Origin: Chloroflexota bacterium
GTDB lineage: Bacteria; Chloroflexota; Limnocylindria; Limnocylindrales; CSP1-4
Assembly: GCA_021786385.1 (NCBI GenBank)
Contig: JAJYNJ010000006.1
Coordinates: 1-47,727, forward strand
Length of the DNA stretch: 47,727 nt
Direction: 5' to 3'
Of the stretch, positions 29,382-33,917 are shown piece by piece; position 1 is the first letter of the stretch; each line of letters opens with the position of its first letter. The translations under genes were made by a program, and so were the position numbers. The notes beneath the pieces were generated by a model, which saw only the letters and a list, made by a program, of their open reading frames with translations, made no database searches and was not told the origin of the DNA.

Positions 29382-29599
29382 GGCTCGAACCTCCAGTGCG
29401 GGCTGCGTCGCCCGTGCGGCGACGGGGTGGAGCTGCTGGTACGGCGTGTAGTATCCCAATTCCGATCGGGCCGGTGGGGCGGGCGGCCGGTCGCGCGGGC
29501 CGGTTGGCGTGGCGGCCGGGGACGGGCTCGCAGGCGTCGGCGTGCCGACCGCGGCTGCCCTCGGGACGGGCCGCGGTCTTCGAAAGGAGGCGGAAGCGT

Positions 29600-31055: not shown

Positions 31056-31649
31056 CTACAGCTCTCCGCGCTCGGCCAGCCGCGCCACCCGGAAGAGCCC
31101 CACGAGCGACTTCGCGTCGTGGATCTCTCCGCGTTCGGCGGCCACCACCGCGTCGCGCCATGGCATCCGCACCAGGTCGAGGCGCTCGTCCGGCTCCGGT
31201 CCCGCGTAGCCGGGAAGCGGCGAGAGCTCCTGCGCCAGGAAGAGGTGCATGTACTCGTCGGTGAAGCCGGGGGCGGTCCAGAATGCGCCCAAGCCGCGCC
31301 AGCGGGCCGCTTGCCTCCCCGTCTCTTCGCCCAATTCCCGCGCCGCGCAGAGCTCGGGCGGTTCGGGCGTGCCGTCCGCGAGCGGGTCGATGGTCCCGGC
31401 CGGAATCTCGAGCAGGGCCCCGCCGGTCGCGTGGCGCCACTGCCGGACGAGCAGGACGTCGTCGCCGTCCAGGGCGACGATCGCCACCGCCCCGGGGTGT
31501 AGGACGAGCTCCCGTTCGTGCTCTCCGCCACCGGCGTCGCGCACCGTGTCGACGCGAAAGGTCAGGTACTTGCCCTGGTAGACGACGCGTTCCGCCACCG
31601 TCGTCTCCTGCAGCCGCTCCTCGTCGCGCGTTGGCTGTGCGTGCGTCAT
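31056..31649 (-). CDS. NUDIX hydrolase (ADP-ribose pyrophosphatase-like)
   Basis: A 197-residue NUDIX protein of the ADP-ribose/nucleotide-sugar pyrophosphatase group (N-terminal strand-exchange region GKYLTFRVDTV, VRQWRHATGGALLEIPAGTID). The catalytic helix is Arg104-Glu105-Leu with Glu108-Glu109 (RELGEETG). The loop between the PAG motif and the helix is about five residues longer than the usual GX5E spacing. The start ATG has no Shine-Dalgarno and lies 8 nt from TATACT on the minus strand, so it is probably leaderless. It is divergent from the diguanylate cyclase by only 21 bp. Confidence 0.92.
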   Translation of the reverse strand: MTHAQPTRDEERLQETTVAERVVYQGKYLTFRVDTVRDAGGGEHERELVLHPGAVAIVALDGDDVLLVRQWRHATGGALLEIPAGTIDPLADGTPEPPELCAARELGEETGRQAARWRGLGAFWTAPGFTDEYMHLFLAQELSPLPGYAGPEPDERLDLVRMPWRDAVVAAERGEIHDAKSLVGLFRVARLAERGEL

Positions 31650-31656
31650 GGCTGCG

Positions 31657-31663
31657 TAGTATA
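31657..31663. promoter_or_regulatory. overlapping bidirectional -10 elements (NUDIX / diguanylate cyclase)
   Basis: The heptamer TAGTATA gives TAGTAT on the plus strand (31657-31662), 8 nt before GTG 31671, and TATACT on the minus strand (31658-31663), 8 nt before ATG 31649. One melted core could fire leaderless transcripts both ways. Confidence 0.65.
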
Positions 31664-31670
31664 GGAGCGG

Positions 31671-33917
31671 GTGCGACCACCACGGCAGGACGGCCAGTGC
31701 CGGTCGCGGCCCACCGTGACAGACGGGGAGCTGCTCGCCCAGCGCCGGCCTGGGTCAGGACCGCCGGCGGCCCTCGCGGCCGCCCTCGTCGGATACCTGC
31801 CCGACGGGGGCGGGAGGTACGATGCTCGATACAACCGCGTCCCGGAGGTCCTCGTCGATGGCGCGCCGTTCGTCTCCGATCCCCGCGGCCTCGACCGCGC
31901 GTCTCGTCGCGGCTTCGCCCCTCCGGCGATGAACGCCGCCCACCAGCCGCCTCCGGGCTTTCCCGACGCGGACGCGGTGGCCATCATCGTGCGCGAGCTG
32001 CGCCGGGACCTGCAGGCCGACGGTGGCATCGCCGTCTACCTGGACGACACGGAGGGCGCGCTCCGCATCGCGTTCGCGGATGGGCCAGTTGCGCGGCGCC
32101 TGGAGCCGCGCGGCACCCGGCGCGTCGGGCTCGATCTGCCGATCCACATCGAGCGGGCAGGTCCCCCGGGCGCCACGCTGCTCGTCGCCGTCCCCGACGT
32201 CGACGGCGGCTTCGTCTACCTCGCGCGCAAAGGTCGACGGCCGTTCACGCGTGCGGATCGGGCGGTCGCCCGGCTCTATGCACGCCGGCTGGCCGAACGC
32301 GTCGCGGCCCTGAAAACGGCCGAGCGCACCTCCCACTGGGTGCAGCAGCTCGAGGCGATCCAGCGCATCGGGGCCCGTCTCACACGCCTCGCGTCGACCG
32401 AGGAGATCGGTCAGACGATCGCGGTGGAGACCCGCAAGGTCATCGAGTACCACAACTGTCGCGTCTACGTCCTCGAGGAGAACGGCGTCGATCTCACCCC
32501 GGTGGCGTTCCGCGGCGAGATCAGTGAGTACCGGGGCGAGACGCTCGACGCCCTGCGCGTGCGAGTGGGGGAGGGGCTGACCGGGCTCGTCGCGCTGCGC
32601 GGCGAGCCGCTCGTGGTGCCCGACGCGGCCCACGACGGCCGTGCGATCCAGATCCCGGGCACGCCTCGCATCGACGAGTCGATGCTGCTGATGCCGATGC
32701 TGTACGAGCAGCAGGTGACCGGGGTGATCGTCCTCTCGAAGCTCGGCATCGATCAGTTCGGCCCCGACGACCTGCGCCTGCTGCGCATCCTGGCCGACCA
32801 GGCCGCCGTCGCGATCGCCAACGCGCGGCTGCTCGCGAGCCGCGACCGCGTCGTCGAGGAGCTGCGGGCCCTGCTCGAGATCAGCCAGAGCGGCAACGAG
32901 GCGCGCGACGAGCGTTCCCTCGCGTCCGTCCTGGCACGGCGGATCTGCGCGGGAGCCGGTGTCGACGCCTGTTCGATCGTGCGCTGGATCGAAGGCACCA
33001 CCCGGCTCGAGCGCCTCGGCCAGTACGGTTCCGACTTGCCACCGGCCACCTACGATCTGCGCGACCGACCGGCCATGCGCCGGGTGCTTCGGGAGCGTGC
33101 CACGGTGATCGTCCAGGCGTCCGACCCGCTGCACGAGCCGGACGAACAGGAGGGGATGCGCAGCCGTGGCGATCGGACGCTGCTGCTCCTGCCGATGATC
33201 GCTGGCGGCGAGGTCCTGGGCCTCGTCGAACTGGCGACGCGCAGCCGCGAGCGCCGCTACTCGGAGGCCGACCTCGAGTATTGCCGGGCGCTGGCGAATC
33301 ACGCGGCCGCGGTCCTCGAGAACGCCTCGTTGCTCGAGCGGCTGCGCCGGGCCGCGGACCTCGATCAGCTCACGGGACTCGCCAACCACCGGCAGCTGCA
33401 GGAGCGACTGGTCCAGGAGGTGGCGCGATCGTCCCGGACGGGGCGGCCGCTCGGCGTGCTGATGCTCGACCTGGACGGCTTCAAGGCGGTCAACGACGAG
33501 TACGGACACGCCGCCGGCGACCACGTCCTCCACGAGCTGGGGACCACGCTTCGGCTCGCCGTGCGGACGAACGACATCGTGGCGCGCTACGGCGGCGACG
33601 AGTTCGTCGTGCTCATGCCCGACACGGCGGCGCGGGAGGCGCGGCTGGCCGCCCAGCGGATCCTCGTGGCGCTGCGCGAGCGGACCTACGCGCTGCCGGG
33701 CGGGGACGTGGCGTCGGTCGGGGCCAGCATCGGATACGCGATCTATCCCCAGGATGGCCTGACGCCTGGGGCGCTCCTCGCGGCGGCGGACCGAGCCATG
33801 TACCTCGTGAAGCGACGAGGTGGTGGGCAGGTGCGCCACTCGATGCGCCCGGGCGAGGGGGCGTCGGTCGGGGCCGTGGCCGGGACGGACGAATCGTCTT
33901 CTTCGCGGCGGGCCTGA
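31671..33917 (+). CDS. GAF-GAF-GGDEF diguanylate cyclase
   Basis: A 748-residue signalling enzyme making c-di-GMP from two GTP. After a poorly conserved N-terminus (to about 100) and a charged region come two GAF sensor domains (about 220-390 and 405-555) and a GGDEF domain (about 570-735). The active site RYGGDEF is intact at 641-645. The inhibitory I-site RxxD (RTND, 632-635) sits at the canonical five-residue spacing, so product feedback is expected. There is no transmembrane segment, so it senses a cytoplasmic signal. GTG 31671 is supported by the -10 8 nt upstream; ATG 31929 is an alternative, removing 86 residues. Confidence 0.9.
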   Translation: MRPPRQDGQCRSRPTVTDGELLAQRRPGSGPPAALAAALVGYLPDGGGRYDARYNRVPEVLVDGAPFVSDPRGLDRASRRGFAPPAMNAAHQPPPGFPDADAVAIIVRELRRDLQADGGIAVYLDDTEGALRIAFADGPVARRLEPRGTRRVGLDLPIHIERAGPPGATLLVAVPDVDGGFVYLARKGRRPFTRADRAVARLYARRLAERVAALKTAERTSHWVQQLEAIQRIGARLTRLASTEEIGQTIAVETRKVIEYHNCRVYVLEENGVDLTPVAFRGEISEYRGETLDALRVRVGEGLTGLVALRGEPLVVPDAAHDGRAIQIPGTPRIDESMLLMPMLYEQQVTGVIVLSKLGIDQFGPDDLRLLRILADQAAVAIANARLLASRDRVVEELRALLEISQSGNEARDERSLASVLARRICAGAGVDACSIVRWIEGTTRLERLGQYGSDLPPATYDLRDRPAMRRVLRERATVIVQASDPLHEPDEQEGMRSRGDRTLLLLPMIAGGEVLGLVELATRSRERRYSEADLEYCRALANHAAAVLENASLLERLRRAADLDQLTGLANHRQLQERLVQEVARSSRTGRPLGVLMLDLDGFKAVNDEYGHAAGDHVLHELGTTLRLAVRTNDIVARYGGDEFVVLMPDTAAREARLAAQRILVALRERTYALPGGDVASVGASIGYAIYPQDGLTPGALLAAADRAMYLVKRRGGGQVRHSMRPGEGASVGAVAGTDESSSSRRA

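Follow-up and report, generated by a model that had tools for sequence, protein, structure and literature searches.

A conserved symmetric −10 core in a Chloroflexota family: a likely promoter of two leaderless genes in relatives, and its putative fate after the probable loss of one partner

In the stretch of DNA of a Chloroflexota bacterium analysed here (47,727 nucleotides, hereafter the window), a NUDIX hydrolase gene diverges from a diguanylate cyclase gene, and between them stands a 7-bp sequence that can be read as a −10 hexamer on either strand. This arrangement raises the question of whether a single −10 element can drive two leaderless genes and, if so, which genes these are. The features on which the answer depends are the following:

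31056..31649, minus strand: NUDIX hydrolase gene, predicted leaderless start ATG 31649-31647 (Pfam NUDIX, E 1.2e-13)
31657..31663, both strands: symmetric −10 core TAGTATA, read directly from the letters; CGTAGTATAGG is identical and in the same place in eight related genomes
31666..31928, plus strand: species-specific stretch where relatives have a PHP-domain gene; homology to the sister species runs through NUDIX and the core as far as 31665 and is found again from about 31929-31936, at the N-terminus of the cyclase
31671..31673, plus strand: GTG originally taken as the cyclase start; comparable in position to the codon at which PHP starts in the sister species, unsupported as a cyclase start
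31822..31932, plus strand: short open reading frame led by a Shine-Dalgarno sequence (start 31822 or 31858); its TGA and the ATG of the cyclase overlap as ATGA
31929..33917, plus strand: GAF-GGDEF diguanylate cyclase gene, conserved start ATG 31929 (Pfam GGDEF and GAF)

The geometry of the core is exactly as the original prediction had described it, with both hexamers contained in 7 bp and a spacing of 8 nt to each codon. Specifically, the plus-strand hexamer TAGTAT (31657-31662) is separated by 8 nt from the GTG at 31671-31673, and the minus-strand hexamer TATACT (31663-31658) by 8 nt from the NUDIX ATG at 31649-31647, both read directly; the 21-bp spacer also proved right, as this is the distance between the ATG and GTG codons. 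The two hexamers overlap in such a way that the −11A and −7T positions of opposite directions coincide. In general, bidirectional promoters form a class in which divergent start sites lie 7-25 bp apart on opposite strands, and Warman, Grainger and colleagues have described members of it that arise from one pseudo-symmetric −10 element with coincident −11A and −7T, in which 18 bp is the commonest start-site spacing and which often sit between two mRNAs (PMC10268837, PMC12825309). Firing in both directions is common for symmetric −10 elements in bacteria (PMC10268837, PMC12825309). When the spacing rule of these promoters is applied to the window, start sites are predicted at ~31651 and ~31669, 18 bp apart and no more than 2 nt from both codons, so that TAGTATA shares with the known promoters the single pseudo-symmetric −10, the −11A/−7T coincidence and the predicted 18-bp spacing.

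Taken by itself, the pattern is not more frequent than expected by chance. A search of the whole 2.68-Mb genome for CAT-N6-8-TANNNTA-N5-8-RTG returned 4 matches (3 distinct sites), as against 4 for the reversed pattern used as control, and the counts among the relatives were likewise similar to those of reversed controls; therefore, any claim must rest on conservation and on gene starts. A third match in the window, at 1310-1338, has a called minus-strand gene on either side and was taken as a chance occurrence.

The conservation of the core is marked. The 12-mer CCGTAGTATAGG occurs in exactly one copy per genome, in the orthologous place, in seven of seven sister species; a match in the genome G016 was rejected, being not orthologous. 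This 12-mer is part of a 19-bp invariant run, the longest of the region, which extends across the core, the PHP-side spacer and the GTG. The PHP coding side downstream of the core shows 84% pairwise identity, and the conservation on that side partly reflects constraint on PHP coding. Moreover, the eight genomes are related, so their conservation does not amount to eight independent events.

On the NUDIX side, the distance from TATACT to the ATG is exactly 8 nt in the window, as it is in all seven sister species (in one of which, G003, start and core were read at a contig end) and in G022, a genome from another genus of the family. No upstream in-frame ATG, GTG or TTG is available to the NUDIX gene in the window. 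This arrangement, with a conserved TANNNT 6-9 nt before the start and no Shine-Dalgarno sequence, is that of the TANNNT leaderless genes of high-G+C bacteria, in which TANNNT stands 6-9 nt before the start codon with neither a Shine-Dalgarno sequence nor a visible −35 element, and Chloroflexi are already among the phyla listed with such genes (PMC3160421, PMC12340547, PMC3898074). In three genomes, sampled over 647, 400 and 374 kb and analysed with a home-made gene caller, TANNNT is found 5-10 nt before called starts 42 times versus 9.8 expected in the window's genome, and 19 versus 4.2 and 36 versus 5.8 times in the other two. A −35 element gave no positional signal among 90 leaderless candidates. 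This enrichment without a −35 makes it very likely that bare −10 leaderless promoters are present in the clade. That the NUDIX half of the core is a leaderless promoter is well supported by these comparisons, and it fits the bare −10 class of the clade.

The gene on the other side of the core is, in the relatives, a different one from that of the window. A PHP-domain gene faces the core in all eight related genomes (the seven sister species and G022), the distance from TAGTAT to its GTG being 6 nt for the sister species and 7 nt for G022. In the seven sister species this GTG is the only possible start, because an in-frame TAG lies 12 nt upstream of it; the PHP domain begins at residue 9 of the protein. 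Here, too, the start codon directly follows the −10, as in TANNNT leaderless genes. On the two sister contigs that show it (G002, G003), the gene order is NUDIX leftward from the core and, rightward, PHP followed by GGDEF. All 8 PHP-bearing loci have an adenine after TATACT, the base that makes the hexamer readable in both directions, as against 6 of 90 leaderless promoters of the clade and none of the NUDIX promoters without PHP whose hexamer is readable; since the genomes share kinship, this contrast is suggestive. Taken together, a doubly leaderless two-way promoter in the PHP-bearing relatives is likely.

Two observations concern gene content at these loci. The PHP gene facing the core in G007 (locus L087) aligns with its orthologue over residues 1-46 and 237-380 of the latter only, and thus seems to be internally shortened, in the species or in its assembly. 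In G033 (L090) and G022 (L083), the place of PHP before the cyclase is taken by a gene for a small membrane protein, apparently one and the same, so that the family has seen more than one change of the gene preceding the cyclase.

The window's own genome, at 96% completeness, has no PHP orthologue. A possible PHP remnant in 31666-31755 was discarded, as it aligns with the 5′ ends of the eight PHP genes no better than with shuffled sequence, and no close copy of the 31666-31928 stretch was found in the genus or elsewhere. The cyclase had been proposed to start at GTG 31671, which has an in-frame TAG 9 nt upstream, and this proposal is the one that the comparison does not support. The coding log-odds of 31671-31928 is 0.45 over 86 codons, whereas called genes, scored over the same length, reach a median of 19.9 with 7.5 as their 5th percentile; this stretch lacks a coding signal, and it shows no similarity to the DNA that precedes the cyclase in the relatives. 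The start codon of the cyclase instead occupies a position common to the window (ATG 31929) and to G002 and G003 (GTG), and the residues that follow it are shared (PGFPDADAVAIIVRELRRDL versus SGFPAAETVSEIVADLRRDL), whereas the upstream translations share nothing. In view of a conserved start at 31929 with no coding signal upstream, the cyclase most likely does not start at GTG 31671. The conserved start lies 266 nt after the TAGTAT hexamer, a distance at which the window's cyclase does not count as leaderless. The overlap of stop and start at the cyclase occurs also in G002 and G003 (GTGA), with a less clear leading frame; the ATGA of the window would fit translation of the cyclase from a leadered mRNA, with translational coupling as a possibility. 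A search for a riboswitch in the cyclase leader (31500-32100) gave no Rfam match at E values up to 1.

The explanation that we favour, and in which we have good confidence, is that the window carries an inherited two-way −10 that would have served NUDIX and PHP, both leaderless, and that the species lost PHP, with the NUDIX half remaining in use and the cyclase being translated from ATG 31929. Conservation, gene content, spacing and start codons are read from the genomes, and from them we infer transcription at the core. TAGTATA would be a minimal pseudo-palindromic −10 that RNA polymerase could bind in either orientation. Transcription to the left would give a leaderless mRNA of NUDIX. To the right, it would give one of PHP in the sister species, and probably did so in their ancestor, with the cyclase behind PHP where the contigs show it. 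In the window species, PHP would have been lost from between core and cyclase, a loss rather than a gain in the relatives being our interpretation of the distribution, and the core would have been retained, its NUDIX half still in use, because NUDIX needs it. As to the right half, its fate would be either that of a relic or that of a promoter reading a leader of ~150-260 nt into the cyclase that starts at ATG 31929. It looks like a relic of a doubly leaderless promoter, and, if it fires rightward, may produce a leadered cyclase mRNA. The idea that one −10 drives two leaderless genes is the best reading for the eight relatives, with PHP and not the cyclase as partner, and in the window only the NUDIX direction is supported.

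Other explanations account for part of the same data. A possible, though rather doubtful, one is that in the window species the core is the promoter of NUDIX only, TAGTAT being a chance mirror that is silent rightward, and that the cyclase has its own promoter in 31666-31821. This would agree with the control-level frequency of the bare symmetric pattern, with the TANNNT-like TACGAT at 31819-31824 and with the TAGCAT found between PHP and cyclase in G002 and G003; this cyclase-proximal TAGCAT, however, is not clearly kept in the window, and bacterial promoters with a symmetric −10 commonly work in both directions. Much less credit can be given to the notion that the core drives two leaderless mRNAs in the window now, from NUDIX ATG 31649 and from cyclase GTG 31671, and that the loss of PHP extended the cyclase by 86 codons at its N-terminus. 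The 8-nt spacing on both sides, the frame that stays open from 31671 into the cyclase, the slightly positive coding score of 31716-31928 (5.18) and the presence of TANNNT leaderless genes in the window's genome all speak for it, but open frames arise easily in G+C-rich DNA, the full extension scores just 0.45 with its first 15 codons negative, and the extension is unconserved, whereas the start codon at 31929 is conserved. Finally, it is very improbable that the missing PHP is an artefact of a metagenome-assembled genome: the genome is indeed a draft of 100 contigs, but the contig is gapless through both flanks, PHP has no orthologue elsewhere in the genome, and the species-specific scar has no close copy elsewhere.

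A second core of the window had been pointed out as similar to TAGTATA:

29449..29455, both strands: TAGTATC between divergent SDR genes, in a non-leaderless arrangement

The likeness is confined to one strand. TAGTAT is indeed present at 29449-29454, but the reverse hexamer is GATACT, and the SDR starts are distant, lying 68 and 145 nt from the core behind Shine-Dalgarno sequences (minus-strand GGAGG at 29390-29394 and AAAGGAGG at 29583-29590). Since these distant starts follow good Shine-Dalgarno sequences, instead of lying within ~10 nt of the core and lacking them, neither SDR gene looks leaderless; TAGTATC may be a promoter, though of genes with leaders.

Similar cores are found elsewhere in the family. 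A stricter symmetric pattern, GTANNNTAC, led to two further gene pairs. In one of them, an independent case, a rhodanese gene diverges from a class-V aminotransferase gene at a TAT[C/G]ATA core that is kept in 27 of the 30 loci fetched (L252-L281). The aminotransferase start lies 6-9 nt from the core in 26 of the 30 and an in-frame rhodanese start 6-8 nt from it in 19; both starts are near the core in 16 loci from nine genera, among them that of the window's own genome (L255, C96:13647-13672). Like the NUDIX/PHP core, this core stands between two start codons at 6-9 nt on each side; in contrast with the window, both partners are present and conserved, and thus the doubly leaderless reading holds without the complication of a lost partner. 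In the other pair, a metallopeptidase-like gene and an alpha/beta hydrolase gene, named by eye with no family search, diverge from symmetric GTATCSTAC or GTAGGATAC cores in G017, G026, G031 and G034 (L178, L180, L183, L189). The family probably keeps a recurrent minimal promoter, in which a bare, symmetric −10 flanked by start codons at 6-9 nt in both directions would give two divergent leaderless mRNAs, all that the expression of two genes requires being contained in ~20 bp. Many genera would have kept it at rhodanese/aminotransferase, and two, that of the sister species and that of G022, at NUDIX/PHP, with the window representing the case after partner loss.

Two-way −10 symmetry and TANNNT leaderless promoters are each known. 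The papers on bidirectional promoters do not describe their mRNAs as leaderless ('leaderless' does not occur in PMC12825309, nor 'leader' in PMC10268837), and the core of the sister species differs from these promoters in that its start codons lie 0-2 nt from the predicted start sites on both sides. Conversely, TANNNT leaderless genes have been described as one-way, with no mention of bidirectional or divergent use in PMC3160421 and PMC12340547. In the literature searched, whose coverage was partial, no bacterial promoter was found for which both divergent mRNAs are leaderless, and within that coverage the conserved doubly leaderless combination is new.

For annotation, the locus advises caution, as G+C-rich DNA easily offers an upstream in-frame GTG at the right distance, which mimics a leaderless start. 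If transcription confirms the proposed reading, ~20 bp would be enough to start both transcription and translation of two genes. In such an arrangement, a polymerase facing one way would exclude a polymerase facing the opposite way, and neither gene would have an untranslated leader available for regulation. Such a promoter would be a natural experiment on the balance that one −10 strikes between two genes, and on the fate of the half left idle when a partner disappears.
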